From Opitutales bacterium (lineage in GTDB: Bacteria; Verrucomicrobiota; Verrucomicrobiia; Opitutales; JABSRG01): a stretch of 64,000 nt of DNA. The position numbers and the translations under genes are program-made. Below the pieces are notes generated by a model. The model saw only the letters and a list, made by a program, of their open reading frames with translations, searched no databases and was not told the DNA's origin. The stretch is from NCBI GenBank assembly GCA_028280845.1, contig JANQKZ010000036.1:1-64000 (forward strand), in the 5' to 3' direction. Shown here one piece after another: positions 38,889-64,000 of the stretch (its first letter is position 1; every line of letters starts with the position of its first letter).

Positions 38889-39911
38889 TTATTCAGACAG
38901 ATCCAACGGCACCGAAAATTCCTGGTCGGATTCCGACCTGAATTGCTTCCGCCAGGGAGAGTAAGTATACACCCGAATGGTCCCCTGATTGGGTTCAAAT
39001 TTGAGAATCCTGAGCCATCCTTCTCCTCCATGAGTAAGGAATTGATAATTCGACAACATTTGGATTACCGGCTGCCCTGCCTCGTTATCCGAAACCAGTA
39101 AGCCAGTTCCGTCCCCTTTCACATGACCCGAGAGAACCATAATGATATTATCATTTCCATAAACCAATTTATTCCAGATCTCCTCCCCATCATTCCACTC
39201 GGGGTTCGATTTTTTAGGGCTCCACTTATCTCCCTCCCCCAACCGGGTATCGTCGTCATACATGTAGCAATGTGTCACGAGAATGACTTTTTGGTCGTGA
39301 TTACTCACCAGGGAGTCCGCCCATGCCAGGGTCTCATCATCCGGTCCATACTCTAGCCCGAGGACCAGAAACTGCTGACGAGCCGCCTGGAAGTATCCGA
39401 AACTGTTGTTAGCGGTATTACCAAGCTGCCCTCCATAATTGGACCTTCCCCTGAAGCGCCAGGGAGAGAAGACGGCATTGTATCGAGACGCCACCCGGAA
39501 CCCCGCCTTATAGGCTGCTCGGTCGTAATCGTGATTACCGGGGACCACCATGTAAGGGACCACGCCGTCGATTAGACGGAAGGCACGATCGGCCACTGTC
39601 CATTCAGCCTCAGAGCCCTCTTCCACAAGATCCCCGAGGTGCAACACATATTTGGCATTGAGAGGCTCCGCCACTTGGCTGATCCAGTTGAACTGAGAGA
39701 GGAAAATCTCCGGAAAAAAGGCGGCATAGCGCTGGGTATCCGGCACCACGATAAGGGTAAACTCCCCAGCCGCCGGATCGACTTGAATGGGAAAATCATG
39801 CGGAAGTACGGCCCCTTTTCCAGCCCAGGCAAACCGGGGACCAGCCCCAATCCAGAGCAAGCCCAGAACCCCGATCACGGCATTGGCCTTAACGATCCGC
39901 CACAGCGCCAT
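38889..39911 (-). CDS. Secreted calcineurin-like metallophosphoesterase
   Basis: The 340-residue protein has an N-terminal export signal. Phosphoesterase motifs are in order: VVPDTQRY, VLHLGDLVEEG, VVPGNHDYDR, ILVTHCYMYDD and VLSGHVKGDGTG. Two usual metal ligands differ: DxH is DTQ, which is common in this PDTQ subgroup, and the final GHxH is GHVK, so a conserved histidine is replaced by lysine. It likely hydrolyses a phosphate mono- or diester in the periplasm, but the GHVK change could weaken it. Its start overlaps the end of the enolase-superfamily gene by 23 bp, so they are one transcript. A phosphatase tied to acid-sugar catabolism is unusual. Confidence 0.85.
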   Translation of the reverse strand: MALWRIVKANAVIGVLGLLWIGAGPRFAWAGKGAVLPHDFPIQVDPAAGEFTLIVVPDTQRYAAFFPEIFLSQFNWISQVAEPLNAKYVLHLGDLVEEGSEAEWTVADRAFRLIDGVVPYMVVPGNHDYDRAAYKAGFRVASRYNAVFSPWRFRGRSNYGGQLGNTANNSFGYFQAARQQFLVLGLEYGPDDETLAWADSLVSNHDQKVILVTHCYMYDDDTRLGEGDKWSPKKSNPEWNDGEEIWNKLVYGNDNIIMVLSGHVKGDGTGLLVSDNEAGQPVIQMLSNYQFLTHGGEGWLRILKFEPNQGTIRVYTYSPWRKQFRSESDQEFSVPLDLSE

Positions 39912-42965: not shown

Positions 42966-44057
42966 ATTAGTAAAGTAACCTTAACCGACGTCGCTCGAGA
43001 GGCTGGAGTCGCTCTAGGAACTGCTTCTCGGGTCATAAATAACCGCCCGAATGTTAACGAGGATGCCCGTCGTCGAGTCTTGAAAGCCGCGAAGGAGTTA
43101 AATTATATCTCCCTCCGCAAGCGCAAGGCCGCTCAAAATGGCGCAGATTCCGGTTCGGGTATCGGAGCAAAGTTGGGTAACATCGGCGTGGTCATTTTCG
43201 GGATGGAGCGATCCTTCGTCCAATTACCGATTACAGCTGAAGCCATTCAGGGGGTGGAACGGCAAATCACACGGATGAACCGCAATATGCTGCTGGCTAA
43301 CGTCCCCCAGTTGGAACAATCTCCGGCCTTCATGATAGATAACTCGGTAGAGGGCCTGGTGCTCCGGTGCCCCCCCGCCGGAGCGTTTCCATCCCCGGAA
43401 GAGAATGAGTTTATTCGCCTGGTGCATCGCTACCCCGCCGTCTGGCTCTTCAACAAGCCGGAAAATGGCCACGGGGACCTGTGCGGGTACGACACCGCAA
43501 AAACGGTCCTTATGGCGGTTAACCATTACAAGGAGATGGGGCATAAGCATATTGCTTTTATCAATCCGCGTCCGGGTAACTTACTCTTGGAGCAATTGAA
43601 AAAGCACTTTTTCTTTGAGGCCCCTAAGGCGGGTCTCAAAACCACTTTACTTGAAAAAGAACGGGCAGACCCCATCACCTGGCCACTGCCTGCCATTCAA
43701 GATGTTCACTATGTGAAACCCCTCCTTGAGCAACTGAAAGCCATGCCGAAAAAGCAGAGGCCCACGGGCCTGTTTGTCGGGGGAGACTCCATCGCTGTCC
43801 AGATTTATATCGCGGCGGAATCGATGGGCCTGAAGGTGGGTAAAGATTTGAGTATTATTTCCGTCAATAACGAGAAGACCTTGACCAATATCCTGAATCC
43901 GGAGCTGACCACCGTAGACGTCTTTTCCGAGGTAGTGGGCCATCGGGCGGTGGATCAATTAATTTGGCGTCTCCAACACCCGGAGGTTACCCAGGAAATG
44001 CGAGTCCTCGTGGCACCCAGTCTGAAGGTTGGCAAATCCGTGAAGAAATTGAACTAG
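42966..44057 (+). CDS. LacI-family transcriptional regulator, apparent ATT start
   Basis: The ORF track begins at a TTG at 43080, which cuts off the DNA-binding domain. Reading back in frame recovers KVTLTDVAREAGVALGTASR, then VINNRPNV and ARRRVLKAAKELNY, a complete LacI helix-turn-helix. Between the in-frame stop at 42927 and 43080 there is no ATG or GTG. The position where LacI proteins begin MSKVTL reads ATT-AGT-AAA at 42966, preceded by AAGGA at the right distance. The 363-residue protein then has a periplasmic-binding-protein-like sensor domain (IGVVIFG through TGLFVGGDSIAVQIY and LNPELTTVDVFSEVVG). It probably responds to a sugar or sugar acid and controls the surrounding genes. A sequencing error at the start cannot be excluded. 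Confidence 0.88.
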   Translation: MSKVTLTDVAREAGVALGTASRVINNRPNVNEDARRRVLKAAKELNYISLRKRKAAQNGADSGSGIGAKLGNIGVVIFGMERSFVQLPITAEAIQGVERQITRMNRNMLLANVPQLEQSPAFMIDNSVEGLVLRCPPAGAFPSPEENEFIRLVHRYPAVWLFNKPENGHGDLCGYDTAKTVLMAVNHYKEMGHKHIAFINPRPGNLLLEQLKKHFFFEAPKAGLKTTLLEKERADPITWPLPAIQDVHYVKPLLEQLKAMPKKQRPTGLFVGGDSIAVQIYIAAESMGLKVGKDLSIISVNNEKTLTNILNPELTTVDVFSEVVGHRAVDQLIWRLQHPEVTQEMRVLVAPSLKVGKSVKKLN

Positions 44058-44161: not shown

Positions 44162-46663
44162 TCAGCCCTGATCAAGGATGAAGTTCTTCGGATCGTAAAT
44201 CTCTGAGGAGGGAGGCCGGGCCTTACCCTTCGTCCGGGTAAATTCCATGGCGTAGAGCTTTGTCCCGCGCATGACAAAGTGCAGGCGAACGGTTCTTCCC
44301 TCGAGCTCGCTCACGTCTGTTCCCTTGGTCAGCCATTCGACTTCCTTGTTGATAAAGTCTCCATTAACGTAGATGGCATCCTCCAGAGTAAAACCGGGAA
44401 TGGGCTTGTTGTTTTCGTCCCGAATCTCCACCTGGGCGTAGCCGGTGGCATCCGTATCGATATTCAGAACCAGGCGATTGCCTTCAAAAACAAGGGGTTT
44501 GGTTGTAAAAGATCCTCCCGTGTAAGGGGTATCAATGGAGACAAACCCATCAACGCGCTGAATGGCCCGATGGATGACCGGCGGCCTGGGCTCAGCAAAC
44601 CCGTCATGGTATGAACTTCGGGTAAAAGTATAATGATAGAGATCCCGCCCGCGTTGAGCAAAACCATAGCCGATATAAGGCCGATTGGCCGGATAGCCCT
44701 CATGCGGCCCAACCCCGATGTAGGTGGGCCGTGGATAGCGCTTCCAATCATGACCATTCCGACTGGTGGCCAGCTGGACCTCGACCAGACCGCTGCCGAG
44801 CTTCCTGTCCGGGTGCCCCAAGACTTGCCGGTTGGCCGGACCATCCCCCCAGTAATGGAAATAAAAAAGCGGAAATGCCAAGTAGACATCGGGAGCTAAG
44901 GGATACTTCATTCCGCGAGTGCTATAGACATCCGCCGCCAACGGGTCGTATCCCTCGGTCGGACCAAAGACTATCGGGAACTCCATCCCAAACCCGCCTG
45001 GAGCCAGGGGGCCATTGTCGAGATACCAGGGATCCAACAATTCGTTCTTCACCCGACGCTCCCTGGCAAGGGCAGCCGTGGATTCCGGGGTCATCGGATC
45101 CATCGGCCAGGGACCAAGGAGTTCTTTTACCTCAGTCAAGACCGCATAGCGTTCGGTCTTTCCACCCGGGGTCCGGCCATAATCCGTCCGGTGGTGCCCG
45201 ACGTAGACCTGGCGCTGATCATCATAAAACACCATACTCTGCGAACCTGGCCAAAAGGGGAGCGCGGCCACCTCATTGCGCTTAAAACTTAATCCATCGG
45301 GGGACGTGTAGACGAAGATCCCCCCCCGCTTTCTCAAACCGCTGACAAACTTCCAACGCTCCTCCGGCGGGGCGTTGGGGTCGATAAATACATTTCCCCG
45401 GGAGGCGGGTTCTTCCAGAACCACGTTGCGGGCACCCTTGTAGTCGCGCCCCAAATCAGGAGCGAAAAAATGCTTACCGTCCTCGGAGAAATGGACCGCC
45501 AAACTATTATCAGGGCCCTCGTGATAGAGACGAATCCGTCCATCATCATCTTCAATGACGGTTAACCAGCCACTGAATCCCGAAGCCACAATTTCATCCA
45601 TGCGGGCAGGATTGGCCTGAAAGGTAATTTGATCAGATTCATCGACCAGGGCACCATCCACAAACAGGTGACGTCGCTCCCCCAATTGAATAGGGGTTTC
45701 TATCTCCTTCCCCGCGGGAAACAACAGGGGAGGCCCTTTTTTCAGACTGACCTCCGGTAAACCATCAGAAAAGCGGCGGGAATAACTGCCGGGGGGGTCA
45801 AATTCACCTTGATAAACGAGATGGTCTGAAAAACGGAGCTCATCAAGAGCTCCTTGTAGCGGCCGGCCCCACAGTCCGTCTCTCCCGATCGAAAAGTAGG
45901 CCTCCTCCCCAAAAGGAAGCGCTTTCCAGTCGACCACCTGGGCCTCCCCCTGCAGTTTTCCATCCGCGAAATGGCGAAGAATCCGGGTCTTTCCATTGTA
46001 GGTAAAGGCGTAGTGATGCCATGCATCGGAGTGCAAGGCCCCGAACATGGATTTCAAAGTAAGTCGGGTCCCGGTGGATTCATTTTCCAGGATAAAGCTG
46101 TCAAGGTCGTGGTCCACGCTCAGGCGAGTCACCTTGTTTTCCGGCTCTCCCCGCGGACCACTCCCCAATTCAAACACCACCCCGGATTGATCGCTTACTT
46201 CATGCGGCTTGAACCAGAATTCCACCGTCCAATCAAATGCCCCAAGATTCAGGCGTGTGTCCGAGGCGTTGGCAAAGGGAAGCCGGCGCAGGTGAGCATC
46301 TCCGCTGGTAAAGAACGCCGAAAAGGCAGCGGACTTCCAAGTCATCGGCGGCATCGTGCGCCCTGCTGGAGTGGGCAACTGGACCAGGCCGAAGGTCTTT
46401 TGCTGTTCCTCGTTCCAATCGAAGACCGGGTTGAATGGAGCCGGCTCCGTGGGCTTGAGTGCGTTCCCGAAACGACCGGGAACGAGGTCCGCCCCGCGTC
46501 CCAGGATGACAAAATAAGAATGAGGTCCGGCATCGTTCAGGGGAGAACTGGGATAGGTCCCCTGCTGTTCGTCGAAGAGCCAGAGAGCTACGGTTTCAGC
46601 CCGGAGGAATTGGACTAAGCTGGTTAGGATCGTGACCCCTAAGATAAGATAAAATCGGTTCAT
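44162..46663 (-). CDS. Secreted LamG-like/beta-propeller protein, putative glycan-active (paralogue of 36288-38738)
   Basis: The 833-residue protein has a short signal peptide (LILGVTILTSLVQFLRA). The LamG-type sandwich spans about 25-285 (DWTVEFWFKPHEVSDQSGV, DAWHHYAFTYNGKTRIL, GALDELRFSDHLVY). A propeller begins near RRHLFVDGALVDESDQITF, with VYTSPDGLSFKRNE and LATSRNGHDWKRYPRP, and the C-terminal sandwich contains LHFVMRGTKLYAMEF. It shares this architecture and many phrases with the 816-residue protein 6 kb away, so the two arose by duplication. It is the last gene of the nine-gene operon; its start overlaps the pdxA2-like stop as ATGA. This is a physical link between a secreted glycan protein and acid-sugar catabolism. 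Confidence 0.78.
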   Translation of the reverse strand: MNRFYLILGVTILTSLVQFLRAETVALWLFDEQQGTYPSSPLNDAGPHSYFVILGRGADLVPGRFGNALKPTEPAPFNPVFDWNEEQQKTFGLVQLPTPAGRTMPPMTWKSAAFSAFFTSGDAHLRRLPFANASDTRLNLGAFDWTVEFWFKPHEVSDQSGVVFELGSGPRGEPENKVTRLSVDHDLDSFILENESTGTRLTLKSMFGALHSDAWHHYAFTYNGKTRILRHFADGKLQGEAQVVDWKALPFGEEAYFSIGRDGLWGRPLQGALDELRFSDHLVYQGEFDPPGSYSRRFSDGLPEVSLKKGPPLLFPAGKEIETPIQLGERRHLFVDGALVDESDQITFQANPARMDEIVASGFSGWLTVIEDDDGRIRLYHEGPDNSLAVHFSEDGKHFFAPDLGRDYKGARNVVLEEPASRGNVFIDPNAPPEERWKFVSGLRKRGGIFVYTSPDGLSFKRNEVAALPFWPGSQSMVFYDDQRQVYVGHHRTDYGRTPGGKTERYAVLTEVKELLGPWPMDPMTPESTAALARERRVKNELLDPWYLDNGPLAPGGFGMEFPIVFGPTEGYDPLAADVYSTRGMKYPLAPDVYLAFPLFYFHYWGDGPANRQVLGHPDRKLGSGLVEVQLATSRNGHDWKRYPRPTYIGVGPHEGYPANRPYIGYGFAQRGRDLYHYTFTRSSYHDGFAEPRPPVIHRAIQRVDGFVSIDTPYTGGSFTTKPLVFEGNRLVLNIDTDATGYAQVEIRDENNKPIPGFTLEDAIYVNGDFINKEVEWLTKGTDVSELEGRTVRLHFVMRGTKLYAMEFTRTKGKARPPSSEIYDPKNFILDQG

Positions 46664-47670
46664 GGTTTACTTTTCTGGTTGGCCATTTGGGCAGCCAGTT
46701 GAATGGCTGCCTTCAAACTCCGTGGATCTGAACTCCCTTTCCCCGCGTTCGCAAAGTCCGTTCCATGTTCGACTGAAGTGCGGATTATCGGAAGCCCCAG
46801 GGTCACATTTACGCCGTTCCAGATGCCCAGCATCTTGGCCGCGATATGGCCCTGGTCGTGGTACATCGCGACCACACCATCAAATTCTCCCTGCCACGCA
46901 CGAAAGAAAACCGTGTCCCCGGCATAGGGGCCGGTGACCTGCCACCCACGTTCCACCGCCGTCTGGATAGCGGGCTGGATCGTGTCAATTTCTTCGGTCC
47001 CAAACAGGCCGTCCTCTCCTGCATGCGGATTGAGGCCGGCTACGGCCAGTTTAGGGGCTTCAATCCCCAGGCCCTTTATCCCAGTAATCGCAATTTCCAG
47101 CACATCCAGGATGCGTTCCCTGCTTACCCGCGAAATAGCCTCGGCCAACGATACATGGGTGCTCACGTGGCATATGCGAAGTCCATCGGCCACCAGCATC
47201 ATGGTGACTTTTTCCACACCACATAGATGGGATAGCAATCCGGTATGGCCATCGAAGTGATAGCCCGCCTTATTCAGGGATTCCTTGTTGATTGCGGAAG
47301 TGACCATGGCGCCGACCGTTCCCTCCGAGCAGAGCTGATGGGCCCGGCTGATAAAATCGTAAGCAGCCTTCCCACACATCGGATCCACAACTCCAAATTG
47401 GTGGGTTTCCCGATCGACATTCTTCAGGTCGAGGACATCCAGGACTCCGGGCTCGAAGACCGCCTCCATCACCGTACCGATTCCCCGGATCTGCAAAGGT
47501 ACCCCTGTGATGGCTAACGCTTTTTCCATCAACCAGGCATCTCCCACAACGAGAAGTCGAGAGTGGTCGGTCAGTTCTCTATCTGCGGCGGCTCGAGTCA
47601 GGAGTTCTGCTCCTGATCCGGCTGGATCCCCCATGGTGAGGGCAAGTAGTGGCTTGTTGGTCTCCATCAT
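46660..47670 (-). CDS. PdxA2-like 4-phospho-acid-sugar dehydrogenase (PdxA family)
   Basis: The 336-residue PdxA-family enzyme has TMGDPAGSGAELL at the N-terminus. The three metal histidines are in FDGHTGLLSHL, GLNPHAGEDGLFG and MYHDQGHIAAKML, with VTLGLPIIRTSVEHGTDF in the NAD site. Canonical PdxA makes pyridoxal precursors. PdxA2-type members work beside DUF1537 kinases and oxidatively decarboxylate 4-phospho-D-threonate or 4-phospho-D-erythronate to dihydroxyacetone phosphate. Here the DUF1537 kinase gene overlaps it directly (ATGA), which favours the PdxA2 role. A second ATG two bases into the overlap also fits. No other vitamin B6 gene is near. Confidence 0.88.
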   Translation of the reverse strand: MMETNKPLLALTMGDPAGSGAELLTRAAADRELTDHSRLLVVGDAWLMEKALAITGVPLQIRGIGTVMEAVFEPGVLDVLDLKNVDRETHQFGVVDPMCGKAAYDFISRAHQLCSEGTVGAMVTSAINKESLNKAGYHFDGHTGLLSHLCGVEKVTMMLVADGLRICHVSTHVSLAEAISRVSRERILDVLEIAITGIKGLGIEAPKLAVAGLNPHAGEDGLFGTEEIDTIQPAIQTAVERGWQVTGPYAGDTVFFRAWQGEFDGVVAMYHDQGHIAAKMLGIWNGVNVTLGLPIIRTSVEHGTDFANAGKGSSDPRSLKAAIQLAAQMANQKSKP

Positions 47671-48863
47671 GAGTGCAAAGCAAATGGTTTAGAGCTGGGT
47701 CCAAACCCGGGTGGCCAGGGAAAGCTGCTCGGTTTCATTGAGACGAAATAGGATTCACTTCCCCCCTTTCCAACTTCCAGGGTCACGGCCCCTTTTCCCC
47801 ATACCTTCGCCACCGACAAGGTGGTCCAACCAAGAGTGCCCAAAAGGGAGGCCGCAGTGGCTCCCCCTTCCACGTAGACGTGCAGGGGGGGGTGAGCGCG
47901 GATGATGGCCGTAGCGGCCTGGGTGAAATGGTTAAGTATGGCAGCGGATTGTTTATGACCGCTAATTCGGGGAGGAAGAATCCTTAAGGCCACGGATTCT
48001 CCCTTCGCCAGATGATTGGAAAGCCGTCCCACCGTCTTTAACTGCTCGGTTGAAGGGGAGTTCAAAAGGCGGTCTGCGGGCAATCCATCGACCTGGATCC
48101 CCTCCCCGGCCATGGTTGAAAATACTTGATGAGTGAACTCGGTCGTGCTGCCTGAAACATAAAATCGAATCGGAGGCACTGCTTTTCCATGGGGCATGGA
48201 GGAGGGCTCCGCTATTCGATCAGGTTGCCGGTCGAGAAGCGCCTCCAGGAAATCGGACCCACCCACCGCCAGGGTATCCCCATCCACTTGGCCGGCCCAG
48301 TAAGCCATCGCCTCCATGGTGTCGGCCTCCCCAATAAAAATCCCCTTCCGGGGCAAGATATCTCTAGCTTCTAATAACCCAACGGAATCCGTTCCGCTCC
48401 GTTCCACTAAGTCAAGGGGAGAGCCGGAAGACGCTGGAAAAGCCGGGTCCCGTGAGAACTCGGTTTCATCAAGCGGCCTGCCCGCCACCCGGTAAATCCC
48501 TGCTTGAATTGTTCGCCCCATCGAAGGATTCTGCGGAACGAGGAGGGCCTTTTGATACCGCCCATGAGCGAGAAAAGGCCGGATCTCTGGGAGCACCTGA
48601 CCCCGAAACAAGGAGTCTATCTTTTTAAATAAAATGGGACTCCCTCCCAACTGCCTCTCCAAGGTCATTAAGCAAGCCTCAGCAGCGGATGGTTTCAATA
48701 ATCGCGTGTCGGTGTTGATGACATGAATCGAGTCTGTCTCCCCATCAATCCGCCTCGGGATCACCATAGGCCCGTGGTGAACATAAGCGACCCAACCACG
48801 ACAAAAGGCAACCGCAGCTACTTCTGCGGCACCCGTCAGGTCATCTGCGAGAATAATAGCCAC
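47667..48863 (-). CDS. Four-carbon acid-sugar kinase family protein (DUF1537; DtnK/OtnK type)
   Basis: The 398-residue protein has the N-terminal AIILADDLTGAAEVA motif that defines this kinase family and LFKKIDSLFRG, which recalls the conserved KxDSTLRG. The C-terminal nucleotide-binding domain has VYVEGGATAASLLGTLGW. Characterised members phosphorylate D-threonate, L-threonate or D-erythronate at C4. Its ATGA overlap with the PdxA2-like gene gives a kinase-dehydrogenase pair leading to dihydroxyacetone phosphate plus CO2. It starts 5 bp after the DapA-like gene. The stereochemistry of the acid cannot be told. It is cytoplasmic. Confidence 0.9.
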   Translation of the reverse strand: MAIILADDLTGAAEVAAVAFCRGWVAYVHHGPMVIPRRIDGETDSIHVINTDTRLLKPSAAEACLMTLERQLGGSPILFKKIDSLFRGQVLPEIRPFLAHGRYQKALLVPQNPSMGRTIQAGIYRVAGRPLDETEFSRDPAFPASSGSPLDLVERSGTDSVGLLEARDILPRKGIFIGEADTMEAMAYWAGQVDGDTLAVGGSDFLEALLDRQPDRIAEPSSMPHGKAVPPIRFYVSGSTTEFTHQVFSTMAGEGIQVDGLPADRLLNSPSTEQLKTVGRLSNHLAKGESVALRILPPRISGHKQSAAILNHFTQAATAIIRAHPPLHVYVEGGATAASLLGTLGWTTLSVAKVWGKGAVTLEVGKGGSESYFVSMKPSSFPWPPGFGPSSKPFALHS

Positions 48864-48868
48864 GGGTA

Positions 48869-49780
48869 TTAGACCAGGTTGAACTCAACCGCCTTTTGCT
48901 TGAGATTCTCGGCCCGGTCTCCGGGAGTATCCACCAGGGGAGGGGCGACCGTGGGCCCGCAGATCCCCATCAGGTGGAGCATATACTTCAGGTCGGCAAT
49001 GGCGTTTCCAATGGGCTTTCCTTTCAGGTAGACATCATTCAAGCCTGTGGCCTCCGCCTGGAGTTCCTGGGCCCGCATATGGTTTCCATCTCTGGCTGCC
49101 TCAAATATCTGCTGCATGGTCCCCGGAAGCACATTGCCCAGACTGGGGACAAATCCATTCGCTCCCAGCTCCATCGTACGGGCCGCAAAGACGGTGGGCC
49201 CGATGTAAACATCGAAGTCGTTCCGATCCCGGTAGCGAGTGATGAGCTGCTCCAGGCGCTCTGGTAAGAATTCAGAGTCCTTGATGCCCACCAGGCTCGG
49301 GTGATGGCTCAACCGTTCAATGATCTCGAGATCCAGGGAATGGTGACTGGTTTGCGGGATGTTGTAGAGGAGCAGAGGCCCACCAATTCCGTCGGCTAAA
49401 CGGATATACCAATGATAGATCTCATCCTGGTTCAGCGGATAATAGTGGGGAGTATGAGCTACAATAGCATCCATGCCTAGCTCCTGATAGCGTTTGCCCC
49501 GATCAATCACGGCCTCCAGACAGTTGCCCCCGATTCCTCCATATAGCATATATGCAGCTCCCAGGTGTCGCCTTGCCTCCCGAAACAGCAGTTCCTTCTT
49601 AGCCTCGCTGAGCGAAATAGCTTCGCCGGTTGTTCCAGCTAGCAGGAAAGCACGGATACCTGATTCGGCACAAAACTCCAACAAGCGGCGGAGCGCCGGA
49701 ACATCCACCTCAAAATCACGGGTCATCGGCGTGATCAGGGGAACAATTACTCCCTCATAACGTTTGTATTCGACCGTCAT
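48869..49780 (-). CDS. Dihydrodipicolinate synthase-family (DapA-like) aldolase
   Basis: This 303-residue TIM-barrel class I aldolase has the pyruvate-binding LLAGTTGEAISLS, the active-site Tyr139 in LLLYNIPQT and the Schiff-base Lys167 in LVGIKDSEF. The family includes lysine biosynthesis DapA, N-acetylneuraminate lyase and 2-keto-3-deoxy-acid aldolases. Inside an acid-sugar operon, and downstream of dehydratase-type genes in the same locus, a 2-keto-3-deoxy-acid aldolase giving pyruvate plus an aldehyde is the best guess. The neighbouring iron alcohol dehydrogenase could act on that aldehyde. It is separated from the flanking genes by 5 and 23 bp. Confidence 0.9.
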   Translation of the reverse strand: MTVEYKRYEGVIVPLITPMTRDFEVDVPALRRLLEFCAESGIRAFLLAGTTGEAISLSEAKKELLFREARRHLGAAYMLYGGIGGNCLEAVIDRGKRYQELGMDAIVAHTPHYYPLNQDEIYHWYIRLADGIGGPLLLYNIPQTSHHSLDLEIIERLSHHPSLVGIKDSEFLPERLEQLITRYRDRNDFDVYIGPTVFAARTMELGANGFVPSLGNVLPGTMQQIFEAARDGNHMRAQELQAEATGLNDVYLKGKPIGNAIADLKYMLHLMGICGPTVAPPLVDTPGDRAENLKQKAVEFNLV

Positions 49781-49803: not shown

Positions 49804-50949
49804 TTAGAGGGCCGCCCGATAGATGGACTCTGCGTCCGCCATCGTGATCTCCCTCGGGTTATTGACAAGGAGCCGGGTCACCTTCATGGCCTCCCTTGCC
49901 AAGTGGGCAACATGCCCCTCCTCTATATTAAACTCAGCCAGGTGCTGCGGAATCCCGCAACGCCGGACAAAGGCTTCTACCCATTCGATACCCGCCTCCG
50001 CATAGGCCACATCGCTGCCCTTACCGGAGATCCCGAATGCGCGGGCCATCCGGGCGTAACTCTCGACCGCGTTGGGTAGATTGAACCGGAGCACGTGAGG
50101 TAAAAGAATGGCATTGGACACCCCGTGAGCGATATGAAATTCACCTCCCAGTGGATAGGATAAGGCGTGGACCCCGCCCGTATTGACCGGCCCAAGACAA
50201 ATCCCGCCGTAAACACTTCCTAAGGCAACGTCAGAACGGGCTTTCTCGTCCTTTCCGTCAGCAATAGCCGCCTCCAGGCTTCTCGCGATGTGCTCAATGC
50301 CGATCAGGGCATAGTTGTCAATCAGCGAGTGCGCATGTTGGTTAGCCAGGGCTTCAATGCAATGGGTCATGGCGTCCACCCCGGTGGCCGCGGTCACAGC
50401 CGGAGGCACGGACCAAGTCAATTCCGGATCGATGTAGGCGCGATCCGGCATAAGATGTGGACTGACCACTCCCTTTTTCAGCGCTTCCGCCTCATCCAGT
50501 AGAATAGCGTTAGGGGAAACCTCGCTCCCCGTTCCCGCCGTAGTCGGAAGGCAGATGAGCGGAATCTCCCGGCCCGGCAAAAAACCAATCCCAAAAAACG
50601 ATTTGACCGATTCCGGATTGCCTATCATGGCAGCGACTAGCTTGGAAACATCCAGAACACTCCCCCCCCCAAGCCCGACTACTGCATCCGGCTGGAAGGA
50701 CTCTGCCGCTGCCAGAGTGGCTTCAAACATGGCAATGTCCGGCTCCCGGTCTATGGCATCGAAGACCTTACATTTACCTCCGGATTGTTCTACCCCGGAA
50801 CAAAATCGCTCATACACTTCTCGTATCGGAGGACTGGATACAACAAATACCCTCCGGTAGCCCGATTCGGCCAGATCTTGAACCGAATTTTCAAGGCACC
50901 CATTGCCAAAGACGAAGCGCCGGGGTTGATTGATCACAATGGTTTTCAT
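49804..50949 (-). CDS. Iron-containing alcohol dehydrogenase
   Basis: The 381-residue group III dehydrogenase has VGLGGGSVLDVSKLVA and TTAGTGSEVSPNAIL for NAD(P) binding. Metal-site residues are in VDAMTHCIEA, GGVHALSYPLGG and HIAHGVSNAIL (Asp and three His). It resembles lactaldehyde/1,3-propanediol reductase-type enzymes. In this operon it could reduce an aldehyde released by the DapA-like aldolase or oxidise a hydroxyacid such as 4-hydroxybutyrate or a C4 sugar acid. It lies 21 bp after the sulfatase stop and 23 bp before the aldolase, so it is a clear operon member. Confidence 0.92.
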   Translation of the reverse strand: MKTIVINQPRRFVFGNGCLENSVQDLAESGYRRVFVVSSPPIREVYERFCSGVEQSGGKCKVFDAIDREPDIAMFEATLAAAESFQPDAVVGLGGGSVLDVSKLVAAMIGNPESVKSFFGIGFLPGREIPLICLPTTAGTGSEVSPNAILLDEAEALKKGVVSPHLMPDRAYIDPELTWSVPPAVTAATGVDAMTHCIEALANQHAHSLIDNYALIGIEHIARSLEAAIADGKDEKARSDVALGSVYGGICLGPVNTGGVHALSYPLGGEFHIAHGVSNAILLPHVLRFNLPNAVESYARMARAFGISGKGSDVAYAEAGIEWVEAFVRRCGIPQHLAEFNIEEGHVAHLAREAMKVTRLLVNNPREITMADAESIYRAAL

Positions 50950-50970: not shown

Positions 50971-52320
50971 TTAATGACCTGGGGTAGCCAGGAGGGTTGG
51001 CTGGTCGGGATCATAACTGGGATTGGGGAGCATCTCCTGGGCCCCGACCGCACGGCGCCAGGCTCCGAGAGAATTACGAAGGGCAGCCACTTTTTCCGGC
51101 TGCAGGCAGGCCAGGTTCGTGCACTCCCCGGGGTCCTCCTCGAGGTTAAACAATTCGAAAGCAGCCCCTCCTCCTCGTTGGGAAAATTCAGGGTCAAACC
51201 ATTCGACCAGTTTGTCATTCCCCACAATGACCGCCCCACAAGGCCCGAGGCCCTGATGGTGATAGTGAGGAAAGTGCCAACCGAGCGGCCTGGAGGGCAA
51301 TTCAGAGATCTTTCCGCTTAGCAGGGGGAATAAATCTACCCCGTCCAGCTCGGTTAAATCGAGCTCAGGATCTACCGCCTGACCAAGGGTCACTGCAACA
51401 TCCGCTCCCGTCACCCGGGTTTGATGCACCCTGCCGGCGGCAAGATCTCCCGGGCCCTGAATGATGAGAGGGACCCGAATTCCGCCCTCGTAAAGAGTGG
51501 CTTTTGCTCCGTGCAGGGGTCGGTCATCATCGTGGTTCCCCGGGCTTCCATGGTCTGCCGTAAAAATGACCCAGGTCTTTTCGCTTAGCCCAAGGGTGTC
51601 CAGTTTTTCCAGCAGCACGCCAACACTCCAGTCCAGGCGCTCCACCATCGCCCCGAGCTCAGGCCGTTGATAATCCAAGTCCGACCCGGACTTTTGGCGA
51701 TACTTTTCAACCAACGCCCTGGATTCCATTTCAGGGCGATGCACCAGGTTGTGTTCCACGACACAGAAGAAGGGTTCAGCCTGGTGCCGCTCGAGAAAAT
51801 CTACGGTGCGCTGAGTAATGGCGCGGGCGTTGTGGGCATCATCCTCGGGATCAGCCCCCGGTTTTGGTTTAACCGTCGTAAAAACCTCCTGAAATCCTTG
51901 GGTTTCAGGATCCATCGGCCGGTTGGGATAATGCTGGTAATCCCGGTTCAGGTGCCATTTCCCGAAATGACCCGTGGCGTAGCCCGCAGCCGCATAGCGG
52001 TTGGCCAGCGTGACTTCTTCGCACGACAGGTAGGGTGTCCACTCCGGGGTCAGTTTCCGTGGATTTTCGGGGACCGAGCCAGGGGTATAGTTGGTTATAT
52101 TCAAGCGCGCGGGATGCTTGCCTGTTAGCAGGCTGGCACGTGAGGGGGTACAGACCGGCCCTGTCCCGTAGGCCTGAGAAAAACATTGGGCCCGGCTGGC
52201 AAAGGCATCCAGGTGTGGGGTTTCGTAAAAGGAGGAGCCGGCACAACCCATCATAAAAGCCGTCATATCGTCAGCGATAATGAAGAGGACATTGAACGGC
52301 TCTGAAGGAGGAGGGCTCAT
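50971..52320 (-). CDS. Sulfatase without a signal peptide (arylsulfatase-like, S1 family)
   Basis: The 449-residue protein starts MSPPPSEPFNVLFIIADDMTAF, going straight into the first metal-site strand with no export signal, and no upstream start extends it. The formylglycine motif is VCTPSRASLLTG with Cys57 and Arg61. Further landmarks are HFGKWHLNRDYQ, FTADHGSPGNHDDDRP and the lysine-bearing LHGAKATLYEGG. It should therefore desulfate a small imported substrate in the cytoplasm, unlike the secreted sulfatase at 23773. Its start overlaps the stop of the sodium:solute symporter (ATGA), a direct coupling of uptake and desulfation. The maturing enzyme is not encoded here. Confidence 0.9.
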   Translation of the reverse strand: MSPPPSEPFNVLFIIADDMTAFMMGCAGSSFYETPHLDAFASRAQCFSQAYGTGPVCTPSRASLLTGKHPARLNITNYTPGSVPENPRKLTPEWTPYLSCEEVTLANRYAAAGYATGHFGKWHLNRDYQHYPNRPMDPETQGFQEVFTTVKPKPGADPEDDAHNARAITQRTVDFLERHQAEPFFCVVEHNLVHRPEMESRALVEKYRQKSGSDLDYQRPELGAMVERLDWSVGVLLEKLDTLGLSEKTWVIFTADHGSPGNHDDDRPLHGAKATLYEGGIRVPLIIQGPGDLAAGRVHQTRVTGADVAVTLGQAVDPELDLTELDGVDLFPLLSGKISELPSRPLGWHFPHYHHQGLGPCGAVIVGNDKLVEWFDPEFSQRGGGAAFELFNLEEDPGECTNLACLQPEKVAALRNSLGAWRRAVGAQEMLPNPSYDPDQPTLLATPGH

Positions 52321-53942
52321 TCTTTCTTGCTTTCCTCGTCCGAATCCAGGGCTTCATCTGTTCCCGAAATTCCCTTGGTGGCATTGCGTTCACGAATTCG
52401 TTTGAGCTCGTAAATCGTGTAACGCCCTACGTTCTCGGGCCGGTGGCCCCCGAATATCAGGCTGGCAATCAGGCCCGAGAAGAAGAGAATCAGGTGCCCG
52501 CCTACCCCAATCAGAATAGGATTCAGATTCCAGTTTATCCCAAAATTCACCAGCCGATTACCGTCCGCGTCGGCTTGTGATAGCAGGGCCCAGATGGTGT
52601 AGACAACACATACCCCAATCCCGATGTACGCCCCTCTCCGGGTAGACTTCTCGGTGAGAAAGCCCAGGGCAAACAAACCCAGAGTGCCTGCCGACAGGAT
52701 AGTGGCGATGGTTATGGCGCGCTCCATCAGCGGAGTGGATCCCTCCGTCGGGACCAGCAGGATGGCGATCGTGGCCGCTGCGAGCCCCCCGCAGAACACC
52801 ATAAACCGGCCAAAGAGCAGCTTGGTCTTTTCCGTCGTATTTTTGAAGATGTTGCTGAAATAATCATTGGTCAGCACCGTTGCCACCGCATTGAGATCGG
52901 CGCTGATCGATGACATGGAAGCGGCCAGAATGGCGGCGAGGATCAAACCGACAACCCCCGTGGGAATGTAGTGCATGAGGAAATAGGGCATGACCTCGTC
53001 CGGGGTGGCCGGACCAGGGTCATTCGGAAGCAATTCAAAAAAGCCGTAGAAGCTTCCCCCGATGAACATGAAGATCAGAAAAATGGGAGCCAGCGCGCAG
53101 GCTCCAAGGAAAGCACCACGGCTGGCCGCTTTATCGGTTTTAGCTATAAGGTAGTGCTGGACGAGGTGTTGGTCCGTCACATAGCGGCGACCCCATTGCA
53201 CCATGTAGGCCAGAAGGAAAATCCACAGCGTCGGGGTGCCCCGGTCAAAGATCGTGGCGGGAGACATATCAAGGTTCCCAATACTATACTTACCGGCCTC
53301 CCAGGCGGTCTGAATAATAGCTCCCGGATCCCCGATCTCGGGGGCAAACAGGATCCGCAGAAGGATGAGTACCGCACTGACCGAGATAAATATCCCCTGC
53401 ACCACATTGGTCCAGGCCACTGCTGTGATTCCCCCGGCCATCGTATAGATAGTGGTGAAAAAACCCAGGCCCAGGATGACCGCGACAGGGTTCCAACCGG
53501 TCAGGACATAGAGGGCGATGGAAGTAGTCAGCAAGGTAACTCCCAGGTCGAATGTCCGGTCGAGCAGGAAGCCAAAAGAGGTATAAATCCGACCGCCCAT
53601 GCCAAAGCGTTCACCAATAAATTCATAAGCGCTCATACGTACTACATGGCGATAAAATGGTACGATCCAGATGGAAATCACGATAAGCAGGACCGGTAGC
53701 ATCAAGTGGGGGATGAGCAGAATCATGCCCTTTTCGTAAACCGTTCCCGGATGCCCCACAAAGGTGGCACTACTCACCACGGTCGCCATAATGGTAAACA
53801 TGACCGCCCAGGTGGGGATGCTTCGATCGGCCGTAAAAAACTTCCGCACGGTCTTTTGACCGCGCGACACGTATAAACCAATCGAAGCTATACCGATCAG
53901 GTAAACGATAATGATGATGAAATCTAATAGCTTAAGGGACAT
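52317..53942 (-). CDS. Sodium:solute symporter (SSS family)
   Basis: The start is moved from 54053 to the ATG at 53942, which opens directly into helix 1 (LLDFIIIIVYLIGIASIGLYVS) and avoids overlap with the upstream gene; 541 residues. More than a dozen hydrophobic segments follow. SSS marks include DRSIPTWAVMFTIMATVVSSATFVGHPG, the AGGITAVAWTNVVQG stretch of helix 6-7, and ILAASMSSISADLNAVATVLTND. The C-terminus is charged and cytoplasmic. The family co-transports sugars, sugar acids or amino acids with Na+. Translational coupling to a cytosolic sulfatase suggests that the cargo is a sulfated mono- or small oligosaccharide or acid. Confidence 0.93.
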   Translation of the reverse strand: MSLKLLDFIIIIVYLIGIASIGLYVSRGQKTVRKFFTADRSIPTWAVMFTIMATVVSSATFVGHPGTVYEKGMILLIPHLMLPVLLIVISIWIVPFYRHVVRMSAYEFIGERFGMGGRIYTSFGFLLDRTFDLGVTLLTTSIALYVLTGWNPVAVILGLGFFTTIYTMAGGITAVAWTNVVQGIFISVSAVLILLRILFAPEIGDPGAIIQTAWEAGKYSIGNLDMSPATIFDRGTPTLWIFLLAYMVQWGRRYVTDQHLVQHYLIAKTDKAASRGAFLGACALAPIFLIFMFIGGSFYGFFELLPNDPGPATPDEVMPYFLMHYIPTGVVGLILAAILAASMSSISADLNAVATVLTNDYFSNIFKNTTEKTKLLFGRFMVFCGGLAAATIAILLVPTEGSTPLMERAITIATILSAGTLGLFALGFLTEKSTRRGAYIGIGVCVVYTIWALLSQADADGNRLVNFGINWNLNPILIGVGGHLILFFSGLIASLIFGGHRPENVGRYTIYELKRIRERNATKGISGTDEALDSDEESKKE

Positions 53943-53964: not shown

Positions 53965-54969
53965 TTACCAGGGCATCGTCCGGCCGGTGTGGCGACGGCC
54001 AATTTCCGCCGCTTCTTCACTGCCGCCTGCTGCGATGGATACGCCCCACTCAATACGTTGGATCACATTGTCAGGAAGCACATTGTCGAGAAAGGGAAGA
54101 TCGTTGGCCTTGGCCGCATCAAGAACCCGCTGGGACGCCGCAATCACTTCGGGCGGTAGCGGAGGATCAGCCCGCCCTTCCAGGTAGCCATAAGACAGGC
54201 CCATGTCGCGGGGCCCGGATTCGGCAAAACCGATCCCGGGGGTTTTCAAGGTCTGTTCTACCCGGGCCAGGGCCTGGGGATCTTCAATCTTCACCCCAAG
54301 CATCAATTCGCCTTCCGGGTTCAGCGGCCAGACATCGGCCTTATTGAAATACTCATGTTTGGAAAGACCCCAAATCTTCTGCGCAAACGCGTTGCTTCCC
54401 ATTCCGCGCAAACCCTGCTCCAGGCCTTGGTCCTTGCCCTGATCATGGATTGGGTATCGGGCAATTTGAATGTATCGCCGGACCGCCTCCGGGTCCCTGG
54501 CACGGGCAAGGTGGAGTCCATGCACGCCATGGGCAAGGATCTGTTGAATCATCCAATGCCCCCCTTCCACCGCCTCCGGGCTGATCCCCAATATCGGCAA
54601 AACGACAATAACCGTTGGGGTCAGATGACCGCTGGGAGTCGGACCGCCATCATGGAGACCTTGCATGTAGGCCCGCAAGGCCGAGAGGTCAAAGGCACCA
54701 TGTTCCAGGTTATATATGATCATGTCGGCCCAGGTCTGGGACATCTCCTTCCCCCGCTGGTAGGCTTCCTCCACGGTCCAGGGGTAATCCGGAGGACGCA
54801 CCCCATAGGAGTAATACACGGGCTGACCAGCTTCCAGGAGCTCAATCGCTTTGTTAACTCGCTTGGGTTTATAATCGGGATCAGGCTGGGCCGTCAGGAC
54901 GGTAGAGCTCAGAAAAAGTAAAACAACCAGGAGGTGGAGGAGGAATTTGTGAGGAAGGTTGATTTTCAT
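53965..54969 (-). CDS. Exported HpcH/HpaI aldolase-family protein
   Basis: The 334-residue protein begins with a clear signal peptide (FLLHLLVVLLFLSSTVLTA). The family barrel follows: MIIYNLEHGAFD (His-Gly pair), GVHGLHLARARDPEAVRR, ELMLGVKIEDPQAL where the usual metal glutamate sits, and GFAESGPRDMGLSYG for the conserved Asp loop. Family members cleave 2-keto-3-deoxy or 4-hydroxy-2-keto acids to pyruvate and an aldehyde and are cytoplasmic. An exported copy is odd and may have another role, such as binding or an extracytoplasmic lyase. It starts 8 bp after the beta-helix gene and ends 22 bp before the symporter. Confidence 0.85.
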   Translation of the reverse strand: MKINLPHKFLLHLLVVLLFLSSTVLTAQPDPDYKPKRVNKAIELLEAGQPVYYSYGVRPPDYPWTVEEAYQRGKEMSQTWADMIIYNLEHGAFDLSALRAYMQGLHDGGPTPSGHLTPTVIVVLPILGISPEAVEGGHWMIQQILAHGVHGLHLARARDPEAVRRYIQIARYPIHDQGKDQGLEQGLRGMGSNAFAQKIWGLSKHEYFNKADVWPLNPEGELMLGVKIEDPQALARVEQTLKTPGIGFAESGPRDMGLSYGYLEGRADPPLPPEVIAASQRVLDAAKANDLPFLDNVLPDNVIQRIEWGVSIAAGGSEEAAEIGRRHTGRTMPW

Positions 54970-54977
54970 CGAATAAG

Positions 54978-56732
54978 TCAGGGTTGAAACTCGTATGCAC
55001 CGAGGTCCGGCCGATTGTCCCCCGTGCCCACCACGGGTCGTGGCCGGCCCAGCATGTCCTTACGAAGGGAAGTAGAGGTACCACGATCAATAAAAGGGGC
55101 TCCCTTTTCAGGTTGATAGGTGGGAAGGACCTCCATGTAGGTCTTGGTGGTTAGCGGCTCTGCCGCAGGCACCTGTCCCCAGATAAATAACCGCAGGGGG
55201 GTATTGCTCGCCACCACGGACCAAAATTCACCAATTCGGATAACCCGACCGCTCAAATCTTCCTCGATGGCTTCCTCTGAAAAGATATCCACTTGGGTCT
55301 GCATCAGGTGGGCATGCCACGTCTGGGTGGCTACGGCTGCCGTAAACCCATCCGCCTTAAAGTTCGGCTGGCTCTCAGTAATCACGAAATTGCCTTCTCC
55401 ATAGGTAAAGTTCCGGGAGGCATTGTGGGTATAGGCCGTGGGCGCTTGGAGATCTGCCGTTTCCAGGATCAGGTTGTTCCTCACATCACTGGAACCCAGC
55501 GTATGTTTCGTCTCCACCATGAGGAGTTCGTCATCGATGGTGTTGTGGTATACTTCTAATTCGGATCGCTGTAGATAGACACCTCCGCCATTCCGCGCAA
55601 TCAGGTTGTTGAACAATCGCCCACGGGATTCCATCGTGATCCGCATGGCCCCCGAGTTTTCCGTGGGGTTTCGGTTCCCCATAAATATGTTGTTTTCCAC
55701 CAGGAAATTAAAATCGGCCCGGGGAGGCACTGGGTCCAGGGGCTTATCATACCGATGCTCCTGTCCCCCAATGAATAGGCCCGCACCATCATCATCACAA
55801 AAATTCCCCAGGATCCAATTATGGCGAATCACCGGATTCACCCAGAGCGCAATGAAGATCCCACCAGCATCGTTATTCGTTAAGGCATGATTCATGGCAA
55901 TCAGGTTGCCTTCAATTAAAGGTTCTCCTTCCCCATAGGCAGAGACGGCTCCCTCTGAACTGCGCATCGGATCATCCGTGCCTACCACGTTGTGCATGAT
56001 CACATTGGCCCTTATGACAGGGCTCGCCCCCATATGTGCTGTGATAGCTGCACCCCGACCAATAACCGTTTCGTTGAAGGCAAAGATATTATTGGCTATA
56101 ACCGGACTCGCCCCATTCAAACAGGCAATCCCGGCACCGTCCCAGGACAATTCATGCCGATATTTCGGATTCCATCCCTCCGGAGCCAGAAGGACATTGT
56201 GGTGGATCACATTGTTGACGATGGTCGGAGACGTGCCATCACAGAGTATGCCCGCACCATAGGCGGATATTTTCCCTCCGGTAATGTGAAAGCCATCCAG
56301 CCATACCGCATCGTTTAACCTCAGGACTCGACCCTTTTCCTCCCCATCCAGGACCGTGGGGTAGGCCATGACCTCCCGGGTGGTCCAATCTCCACGTTTA
56401 AATCCACCGTAAAGCCTCACTCCCCTGGGTATGTCCAGCTCTCCTTCGGCATAAGAGCCCTCGGCCACCAGGATGATCCCACCTCCGTCGGGTAGTCGGC
56501 CCAGGGCTCCCCGGATGGTGCTCAGAGGGGCTCTCATCGTTCCCTTTCCCCTCGTGTCGGATCCCCCGTCCACGTCTACGTGCAGCACGACTTCCCCCGT
56601 TTCCAACCGCGGCATGGCTGAGCTCGGTCCCAATGCTGCAGCCGGCGCTACCAGGATAGAGAATAGCCAATTCAGCAAGCTTACACAAATGATCGAAAAG
56701 GGGAGTTGGGGGCTTTTTTTCAGGGGGGGCAT
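54978..56732 (-). CDS. Secreted right-handed beta-helix protein (DUF1565-like; paralogue of 60474-62387)
   Basis: The ATG at 56732 is used instead of the GTG at 56756; the signal peptide (FSIICVSLLNWLFSILVAP) follows. The mature protein opens with HVDVDGGSDTRGKGTMRAPLSTI and GRLPDGGGIILVAEGSYAEGELDI, the usual entry to polymorphic parallel beta-helix proteins. It continues with rungs such as SPTIVNNVIHHN, SPVIANNIFAFNE and NPVIRHNWILGN. The C-terminus has a short tail ending RPDLGAYEF. No lyase or hydrolase motif is obvious, but this fold hosts many polysaccharide lyases. It is the first gene of the nine-gene operon and is divergent from the 5'-nucleotidase-like gene over a strong palindrome. 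Confidence 0.8.
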   Translation of the reverse strand: MPPLKKSPQLPFSIICVSLLNWLFSILVAPAAALGPSSAMPRLETGEVVLHVDVDGGSDTRGKGTMRAPLSTIRGALGRLPDGGGIILVAEGSYAEGELDIPRGVRLYGGFKRGDWTTREVMAYPTVLDGEEKGRVLRLNDAVWLDGFHITGGKISAYGAGILCDGTSPTIVNNVIHHNVLLAPEGWNPKYRHELSWDGAGIACLNGASPVIANNIFAFNETVIGRGAAITAHMGASPVIRANVIMHNVVGTDDPMRSSEGAVSAYGEGEPLIEGNLIAMNHALTNNDAGGIFIALWVNPVIRHNWILGNFCDDDGAGLFIGGQEHRYDKPLDPVPPRADFNFLVENNIFMGNRNPTENSGAMRITMESRGRLFNNLIARNGGGVYLQRSELEVYHNTIDDELLMVETKHTLGSSDVRNNLILETADLQAPTAYTHNASRNFTYGEGNFVITESQPNFKADGFTAAVATQTWHAHLMQTQVDIFSEEAIEEDLSGRVIRIGEFWSVVASNTPLRLFIWGQVPAAEPLTTKTYMEVLPTYQPEKGAPFIDRGTSTSLRKDMLGRPRPVVGTGDNRPDLGAYEFQP

Positions 56733-56781
56733 AAGCCATTTCAACCTATGATCCACATATTCTTTAGCAAGGATTTTATCT

Positions 56782-62387: not shown

Positions 62388-64000
62388 ATCCGCCTTAACC
62401 CTTTTCTTTTCCCTGTTGTCGCTCGGTGGTGCCGCAACCCCTCCCCCCGCAGATGAGATCCGGGATCAGCCCGTAATATATACCGGCTCGGAAGACGCCG
62501 ACAAGCGCTGGCACCACGGCGGGTTCCGGTCCGCGGTCGGCGTCCACAAGATCCAGGTCCTGCGCGCCTCGCGACATGAACCCCTGCAAAACCGGGAGGT
62601 GGGCTGGACTTATAACCATGCTCCCATGCTGGCCTACTGGGAGGGCCGCTTCTGGATGAATTACGTATCCAATAGTGTCGAGGAGCACGGTACACCCGGT
62701 CGCACCCCCTTCACCTCCTCAGCCGACGGCTATAACTGGCAATTTCCTGAAGTCGGCTTCCCGGTGGTCCGCCTCCCTGAATTTACCCCCGACCCGCGCT
62801 ACTTCGGTGGGCGCAGCCCCGGCGTCCAGCCCGAGGGTACTGAGTCAGTCATGCATCAGCGCATGGGATTCTACGTGGCCCCCAATGGCCGGCTGCTCAC
62901 CTCGGGCTTCTACAGCTATTGCCCGAATGTCCGATACGGCCCTAACCGCGGCCAGGGTCTCGGCCGCGTCATCCGTGAGGTCTTCCCCAACGGAAGCCTC
63001 GGCCCGATCTATTTTGTCCGCTACAACCGCCACGCCGGCTGGGATGAGTCCAATACCCCCTTCCCCTTTTTCACCGAATCCGGGGATCCGGGCCTGATTG
63101 AGGCCTGCCGGGCCCTCCTCGCCGATAAGTTGATGACCCTGCAGTGGTGGGAGGATGATCGCGGAGATGATGGGTTCTTCACCTTGGAAATCCCCGATGA
63201 TCTGAAAATCTCCGACCTCACCTTCGGACCCATCCCGGAGGACGACGTCAATTACATCGAGCCCAAGGCCCTGAGTTACTATAAACGCGACGACGGGGTC
63301 ACCGTAGGTGTCCTCAAAAGCGAACTCGCCCTCTTGAGTGAAGACGACGGCATGACCTGGACCCGTGGACGCCACCCCTTCCCGGAGTCCGCCGCCAAGA
63401 TCTGGGGGCAGCGCACCGACGACGCACGCTTTGCCCTTGTCTATTGCCATAGCGCCACCCGCCGAAACCGCTTCCCGCTGGTGGCCGTGACCAGCGACGA
63501 TGGCTACGCTTTTGATAACATCAACCTGATCCACGCCGAAGTTCCTCCCATGCGTTACCGCGGGACCAATAAGGCGCAAGGCCCCCAATATATCCGGGGA
63601 ATCATGCCCGGAAATGGCAACCCGCCCGGCGACCACATGTGGCTTACCTACAGCGTGAACAAGGAAGATATCTGGGTAGCCCGGGTCCGCACCCCCATTG
63701 AGGACTCCGTTTCCGAGCATCTGGACGAATCCTTTGAGGGCTACGAGAGTATCGTGGATATGGAACTGTGGAATCTTTACCTGCCCCAGTGGGCTCCCAT
63801 TTCATTGGCCGTCGATCCCTGGGACCCGAAGAATCAGGTGCTCCAGATCAAGGATGAAGACCCTTACGACTACGCCAAAGCGGAGCGTGTCATTCCTCAA
63901 AGCAAACGGCTCAAGATTTCCTTCCGTGTCCTCCAACAACATTATGGAATAAACGGCCTCGAGGTCGAAGCCCAGACGGCCCGGGGCGGCCGCCCCATGC
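62371..64000 (+). CDS. Secreted beta-propeller glycan-active protein (sialidase- or lyase-like), 3' end off window
   Basis: This frame is absent from the ORF track because it is open to the right edge. The ATG at 62371 overlaps the beta-helix gene by 17 bp and starts a signal peptide (SALTLFFSLLSLGGAA). The visible 543 residues include GWTYNHAPMLAYWEGRFWMNYVSN and FTSSADGYNWQFP, then LLSEDDGMTWTRGRHPFPE and VAVTSDDGYAFDN, all Asp-box-like turns of a propeller. From about residue 450 a beta-sandwich-like region begins (LDESFEGYESIVDMELWN). Proteins of this look are annotated as exo-sialidase-like or appear among propeller polysaccharide lyases; I cannot decide. A large minus-strand ORF over it is a shadow. 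Confidence 0.72.
   Translation, partial: MFPKIKSALTLFFSLLSLGGAATPPPADEIRDQPVIYTGSEDADKRWHHGGFRSAVGVHKIQVLRASRHEPLQNREVGWTYNHAPMLAYWEGRFWMNYVSNSVEEHGTPGRTPFTSSADGYNWQFPEVGFPVVRLPEFTPDPRYFGGRSPGVQPEGTESVMHQRMGFYVAPNGRLLTSGFYSYCPNVRYGPNRGQGLGRVIREVFPNGSLGPIYFVRYNRHAGWDESNTPFPFFTESGDPGLIEACRALLADKLMTLQWWEDDRGDDGFFTLEIPDDLKISDLTFGPIPEDDVNYIEPKALSYYKRDDGVTVGVLKSELALLSEDDGMTWTRGRHPFPESAAKIWGQRTDDARFALVYCHSATRRNRFPLVAVTSDDGYAFDNINLIHAEVPPMRYRGTNKAQGPQYIRGIMPGNGNPPGDHMWLTYSVNKEDIWVARVRTPIEDSVSEHLDESFEGYESIVDMELWNLYLPQWAPISLAVDPWDPKNQVLQIKDEDPYDYAKAERVIPQSKRLKISFRVLQQHYGINGLEVEAQTARGGRPM

Follow-up and report, generated by a model that had tools for sequence, protein, structure and literature searches.

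A signal-less sulfatase encoded beside a sodium symporter in an Opitutales operon, with a predicted role in the uptake and breakdown of a sulfated sugar acid

Introduction

On which side of the membrane, and on what, does a sulfatase act when it carries no export signal and its gene overlaps that of a sodium symporter? Such a pair lies in the window, which here means the whole stretch of 64,000 nucleotides that was analysed, and an earlier note had proposed that a small molecule is imported with its sulfate and desulfated inside the cell. Choline-O-sulfatase (BetC) and similar cytoplasmic sulfate-ester hydrolases act on an imported small sulfate ester, fed to them by a transporter. Signal-less sulfatases are already known from PVC bacteria through the predictions in a study of Kiritimatiellales strains F1 and F21, where 141 of 521 and 106 of 480 sulfatases, respectively, were predicted to be soluble and cytoplasmic (PMC6388578); in another member of this group, 96% of the sulfatases had signals (PMC10880615).

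Organization of the operon

The symporter (SSS) and the sulfatase (SULF) were found to be encoded within an operon of nine genes, running from 56756 down to 44162 on the - strand:

54978..56756 (-), BHELIX, exported right-handed beta-helix protein (DUF1565), operon gene 1
53965..54969 (-), HPCH, exported HpcH/HpaI (2-keto-3-deoxy acid aldolase)-like protein with a signal peptide
52317..53942 (-), SSS, sodium:solute symporter, 541 aa, with an ATGA overlap with SULF
50971..52320 (-), SULF, S1-type sulfatase, 449 aa, without signal peptide, with a CTPSR fGly motif
49804..50949 (-), FEADH, iron-containing alcohol dehydrogenase, lactaldehyde reductase/ErcA-like, under the equivalog cut-offs
48869..49780 (-), DHDPS, class I pyruvate aldolase family (DapA/NanA/KDG aldolase superfamily)
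47667..48863 (-), KIN, DUF1537 four-carbon acid-sugar kinase (SBD_N), D-threonate-kinase-like, under the equivalog cut-off
46660..47670 (-), PDXA, PdxA-family decarboxylating dehydrogenase
44162..46663 (-), LAMG1, exported Laminin_G_3 and probable beta-propeller protein, final operon gene

Successive genes were separated by 8, 22, -4, 21, 23, 5, -4 and -4 nt. N-terminal signals were present on BHELIX, HPCH and LAMG1, and on none of the five enzymes from SULF through PDXA. The SSS/SULF junction reads ...AAAGAATGAGCC, in which the TGA of the symporter and the ATG of the sulfatase share the ATGA; the sulfatase start therefore overlaps the symporter stop by 4 nt, as had been noted earlier. The same 4-nt overlap occurred at KIN/PDXA and PDXA/LAMG1, i.e., at three of the eight operon junctions in all. 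The translational coupling that had been proposed for the symporter and sulfatase is thus consistent with the overlap but is not particular to them, and was rejected as special evidence for this pair. A promoter scan gave fewer matches than were found in shuffled sequences.

In Acidobacteriota, BHELIX- and HPCH-like genes appear as a single fused ORF (L048:17797-20529, also L051), which suggests that the two proteins work jointly outside the cytoplasm. The AlphaFold model of LAMG1 was of low confidence (mean pLDDT 63, pTM 0.40), and its top matches, which were sialidase-like, reached a TM of 0.14, a mere lead. Three other genes of the window are relevant here:

43080..44057 (+), LacI-type regulator in which a periplasmic-binding-protein domain was found, convergent with the operon end
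39889..41232 (-), MRMLE, enolase-superfamily protein with a Tat signal, above the NCBIfam galactonate dehydratase cut-off
36288..38738 (-), LAMG2, second exported Laminin_G_3 protein, a paralogue of LAMG1

Homologues of the regulator adjoin cassettes in five other loci (L035, L038, L041, L045 and L068), and in Acidobacteriota and Gammaproteobacteria, exported sulfatases have homologues of MRMLE (55-58% identical) as direct neighbours. It would be unusual for a sugar-acid dehydratase to be sited outside the cytoplasm.

The sulfatase and the symporter

SULF matched PF00884 (E=1.6e-46, 159 bits), and the domain search described a plain sulfatase with no additional C-terminal sorting domain. Its top PDB matches, both S1_16, were 6UST and, as the best, the kappa-carrageenan sulfatase 9FO1 (residues 5-440 of SULF covered, E=1e-74). 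These nearest characterised relatives in the PDB make SULF a candidate member of S1_16. The pocket Trp (W79 in AMOR_S1_16A) is Tyr at position 78 of SULF; as this Trp is not universal, being conserved in only 37% of S1_16 sequences (PMC11760155, PMC10154612), membership of the subfamily is tentative. In the alignment, the fGly motif (C57-T-P-S-R) and the catalytic and metal-binding set D17, D18, K121, H123, H194, D256 and K273 were kept, the set being invariant or nearly so in the 58 aligned rows. SULF is therefore no dead copy, and hydrolysis of a sulfate ester is predicted from these intact residues. A gene for the anaerobic sulfatase maturase (anSME) is present in the source genome (TIGR03942, 490 bits, cut-off 349). 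Choline sulfatase was rejected as the identity of SULF (TIGR03417, 102.5 bits versus a cut-off of 433.45), as were arylsulfatase and PehA, for which the scores were far under the curated cut-offs.

Sec, Tat and lipoprotein signals were all absent from the N-terminus of SULF. Upstream of its ATG, only 11 in-frame codons (SPGFGRGKQER) precede a stop, and they form no hydrophobic stretch, so that SULF cannot gain a signal peptide by extension; a missed signal peptide was thus ruled out by the in-frame stop 12 codons upstream. Both statements of the earlier note on this point, no signal peptide and no possible upstream extension, were borne out.

SSS matched PF00474 (E=9.6e-38, 130 bits, cut-off 22.8) and TIGR00813 (196 bits, cut-off 184); an ATG at 53942 was preferred as its start to a TTG at 54053. 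The best PDB match was 5NV9, the sialic acid transporter SiaT of the SSS family. Uptake of sialic acid was rejected, as the residue that is presumably the substrate-binding Arg of 5NV9 was read, by eye in the alignment, as Asp in SSS.

Candidate substrate

DHDPS, FEADH and KIN scored under the cut-offs of the equivalogs that name a substrate, and PDXA passed the general pdxA model only; the substrate of each was therefore assigned by analogy. Four-carbon acid sugars are the substrates of DUF1537 kinases and of PdxA2 (Zhang et al. 2016, as cited in PMC9997740). According to pathway chemistry, an aldolase and an iron-containing alcohol dehydrogenase acting on a C7 3-deoxy-2-keto diacid would give pyruvate and a tetruronate, and from the latter a tetronate; 3-deoxy-heptulosaric acid (Dha) fits this description. 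We thus propose DHDPS as a Dha aldolase, FEADH as a tetruronate reductase and PDXA as a 4-phospho-tetronate dehydrogenase (the PdxA2 role), so that FEADH, DHDPS, KIN and PDXA would together supply the steps needed from Dha to pyruvate and dihydroxyacetone phosphate.

Dha is cleaved from rhamnogalacturonan II (RG-II) by BT1020 (PDB 5MQR), the N-terminal half of which we take to be the Dha hydrolase. A protein resembling this half begins at the end of the window:

62440..64000, continuing beyond the window edge (+), BT_1020-N-terminal-like protein, first of three on the contig, with PF24067 at contig 62470-63186

The three proteins, which match BT1020 residues 26-611 or PF24067, are encoded at 62.4-64.4, 70.5-72.4 and 73.9-75.9 kb of the contig, 6-19 kb from the operon and outside it. 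This part of contig C60 (62.4-75.9 kb; window 62440 onward, L207) also holds two exported sulfatases, one of which (72.5 kb) is a homologue of SULF. In the flanks examined for most signal-less sulfatase loci, BT1020-like genes were not found.

Among the genomes of 87 relatives, 7 encode a full-length PF24067 protein and 15 a DUF1537 protein, the former all being included in the latter (DUF1537 in 7/7 genomes with versus 8/80 without a BT1020-like PF24067 protein, p=1.1e-6). The FEADH-DHDPS-KIN-PDXA quartet, present at the window operon, also co-occurs in G021, G030, G046 and G062, and BT1020-like proteins are linked in the source genome (G000), G021, G030 and G069. In G069 and G021, the BT1020-like and DUF1537 genes stand within 2-3 kb of each other. 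Further genes of the G021 locus encode PdxA, an aldolase, an iron-containing alcohol dehydrogenase, GH28 and GH2, and no sulfatase was found in the stretch read, which matches the expectation for unsulfated pectin. In G030, a single locus of about 28 kb combines a BT1020-like protein, a signal-less sulfatase, LAMG, an enolase-family protein, HPCH, BHELIX, the four catabolic genes and a symporter. Carboxylate transporters typical of acids were observed at cognate loci, namely GntP in L067 and the TRAP transporter DctPQM in G030.

Two further loci hold signal-less sulfatases of the CTPSR type. In G021 (L365:10121-13433, contig C116), one directly precedes a BT1020-like (PF24067) protein that likewise has no signal, in a neighbourhood with enolase-family, 2-hydroxyacid dehydrogenase and DHDPS-family genes; judging from these genes, it is an independent case of the same logic, possibly a fully cytoplasmic version of the same chemistry. 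In G062 (L356:2118-8799, contig C387), a FEADH-DHDPS-KIN-PDXA operon is followed by a signal-less CTPSR sulfatase of a different type (DQQRADT).

Of the wall sugars of Tetraselmis suecica, 17% is Dha (PMC7693365), which also occurs in the scales of prasinophytes (PMC10762512). In the literature searched, no report of sulfated Dha and no bacterial pathway of Dha breakdown were found.

Import before desulfation could be correct with another cargo, such as Kdo, a galactonate-type aldonate, a uronate or a 4-O-sulfated galactose derivative, while KIN and PDXA recycle tetronate from elsewhere. S1_16 enzymes of known activity use Gal or GalNAc 4- or 6-sulfate (PMC11760155, PMC10154612), MRMLE scores as a galactonate dehydratase, and the Tetraselmis wall contains Kdo (54%) and GalA (21%) besides Dha (PMC7693365). 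However, the pocket Trp of the characterised S1_16 enzymes is replaced by Tyr or Phe in most members of both sulfatase clades described below. None of those sugars would yield tetronate through an aldolase and a reductase, so that the conserved quartet would be left unexplained, and the co-occurrence of BT1020-like and DUF1537 proteins would be a coincidence. We consider another cargo possible but rather unlikely, and retain Dha as the leading candidate.

Relatives of the sulfatase and their symporters

In a maximum-likelihood tree of 58 relatives, the 15 signal-less sequences (two of these loci being identical in sequence) formed a single clade with 100/100 support, found in Verrucomicrobiota only. 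In 13 of the 15, a symporter gene with 55-68% identity to the SSS type lies directly upstream on the same strand, with either the same 4-nt overlap or a gap that is usually below 60 nt (201 nt in one case); in L114/G046, the symporter is adjoining but divergent. At one position of the calcium site, His was found in 15/15 signal-less sequences and Asn in the 43/43 others. Outside the clade, the readable sequences carry Sec, lipoprotein or Tat-like signals, two others being cut by contig ends. These signal-bearing homologues are approximately 45% identical to SULF, and several belong to comparable cassettes of Acidobacteriota, Gammaproteobacteria, KSB1 and Melioribacteraceae. Orthologues with signal peptides, which the earlier note had named as an argument against its reading, thus exist among distant homologues but not in the 15-member clade. 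Because homologues at this distance carry export signals, a cytoplasmic location is predicted for this one clade and not for the sulfatase family at large.

The symporters of the exported-sulfatase cassettes showed 32-37% identity to the verrucomicrobial type. Their representatives across phyla were 53-76% identical within the group, and were as distant from the signal-less group as is the own-genome paralogue L302. When one origin was weighed against replacement of the symporter, a single clade was not rejected (p=0.54), and replacement is therefore not demonstrated. The simplest history would be that the location changed once, in one lineage, and that the symporter there is a different one or has diverged strongly.

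Since the signal-less clade mostly stands beside one symporter type and its exported kin occur in other phyla, we favour import before desulfation, which is probable when Dha and other cargoes are taken together. Of the earlier proposal, the cytoplasmic location, conserved across the clade, and import, with which the conserved symporter neighbour agrees, stand as the best reading of these sequences. The neighbouring genes favour a sugar acid, probably of the 2-keto-3-deoxy type (Dha, for example), over the generic sulfated monosaccharides that the earlier note had named for a transport assay.

The symporter might instead carry a product that is already desulfated, with SULF dealing only with a small sulfated remainder, with substrate that has leaked or with a sulfated metabolite of internal origin. 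Exported SULF homologues are encoded on this contig (72.5 kb) and also at the same loci, in L035, L038, L041, L045 and L068, which means that some sulfate can be removed outside beforehand; nevertheless, the position of the sulfatase directly downstream of the symporter in 13/15 members and the clade-wide lack of export signals suggest a main-line step, and we regard a clean-up role as improbable. Export that does without an N-terminal signal, or a location that is an annotation artefact, is very improbable: homologues with Sec, lipoprotein or Tat signals in other phyla indicate that the ancestor may have been exported, but the upstream stop excludes a missed signal peptide, the 449-aa SULF has no extra sorting domain, and fifteen loci agree.

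Sulfatases in the source genome and in a second genome

We identified 97 PF00884 genes in the source genome (split matches joined), of which 86 encode a Sec or Tat-like signal and 11, including SULF, do not, as called by a hydrophobicity rule and by eye. For seven of these 11, a gene in the same orientation and no more than 100 nt away encodes a polytopic protein of at least 300 aa, and an eighth stands second in such an operon. According to Pfam, all seven transporter neighbours are SSF or MFS proteins. A neighbour of the SSS or MFS type was thus observed for 7/11 signal-less versus 4/81 exported sulfatases, the latter being those with both neighbours read (Fisher p=1.0e-5). In genome G031, sampled in part (95 sulfatases in 20 dense stretches), none of six signal-less candidates was beside a transporter, two of the six being probable artefacts of start choice or domain boundary. 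The association was therefore not replicated and is valid for one genome only.

A second SSS-sulfatase pair was observed in the source genome (L214:2061-5308; G000:C11, 108-111 kb), and its genes likewise overlap by 4 nt. Its sulfatase lacks a signal peptide and is of an unrelated type, with about 30% identity to SULF. Elsewhere in this genome (L211:3133-6574, G000:C52), a signal-less sulfatase gene lies beside genes for a GH4 glycosidase and an anaerobic sulfatase maturase.

Discussion

We propose, with a probability of about 0.5, that the operon serves the uptake and breakdown of a sulfated sugar acid, with Dha as the leading candidate. BHELIX, the HpcH-like protein and LAMG, with the nearby BT1020-like proteins and exported sulfatases, would free a small acid from a glycan outside the cytoplasm. 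SSS would import this acid with sodium and with the sulfate ester still on it, and SULF, matured in the cytoplasm by anSME, would strip the sulfate. The DHDPS-type aldolase would then cleave the 2-keto-3-deoxy acid, giving pyruvate and an aldehyde acid, which the iron-containing alcohol dehydrogenase would reduce to tetronate; after phosphorylation by the DUF1537 kinase, PdxA would oxidise and decarboxylate the phospho-tetronate to dihydroxyacetone phosphate. Gene content, operon layout, clade-wide absence of signals, catalytic residues and the co-occurrence of BT1020-like and DUF1537 proteins were read directly from the sequences; the direction and cargo of the symporter, the cytoplasmic activity, the identity of the acid and its sulfation at import are inferred. 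The complete account, in which sulfated Dha follows every one of these steps and a single verrucomicrobial lineage relocated its sulfatase from periplasm to cytoplasm, with a different symporter at its side, is more tentative.

If this is true, some of the many signal-less sulfatases of PVC bacteria would desulfate small imported acids and not polymers, and import of sulfate esters would shift the site of sulfate release in marine glycan turnover. The scheme also offers a concrete way in which bacteria could catabolise Dha, a rare sugar acid that occurs in algal scales and in the RG-II of plants. Cytoplasmic sulfatases as such are known; their combination with a Dha-type sugar-acid route in a marine-type Verrucomicrobiota bacterium would be new.

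Compared with known systems, SULF has the same catalytic set as the characterised S1_16 sulfatases, including BT3057 and BT3796. However, AMOR_S1_16A has a signal peptide and the BT enzymes are predicted to lie outside the cytoplasm, whereas SULF has no signal; the characterised enzymes act on Gal or GalNAc sulfates and have the pocket Trp and a calcium-site Asn, where SULF has Tyr and His. With respect to BetC, SULF reaches only 102 bits against the choline-sulfatase cut-off of 433, and its setting is carbon catabolism of a sugar acid with a sodium symporter. For the cytoplasmic sulfatases of Kiritimatiellales F1 and F21, the main text of the study does not mention transport or a symporter, and no proposed substrate or pathway was found in it (PMC6388578). 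The adjacent KIN and PDXA belong to the same families, in the same adjacency, as the proteins of the DUF1537/PdxA2 four-carbon acid sugar pathways (Zhang et al. 2016, as cited in PMC9997740), to which the window adds an aldolase and an iron-containing alcohol dehydrogenase that could make tetronate from a C7 diacid, as well as the sulfatase and the symporter. Finally, in contrast to BT1020 in the release of Dha from RG-II, the proteins on this contig stand alone, without the C-terminal half of BT1020, and are associated with sulfatases in marine-type loci.
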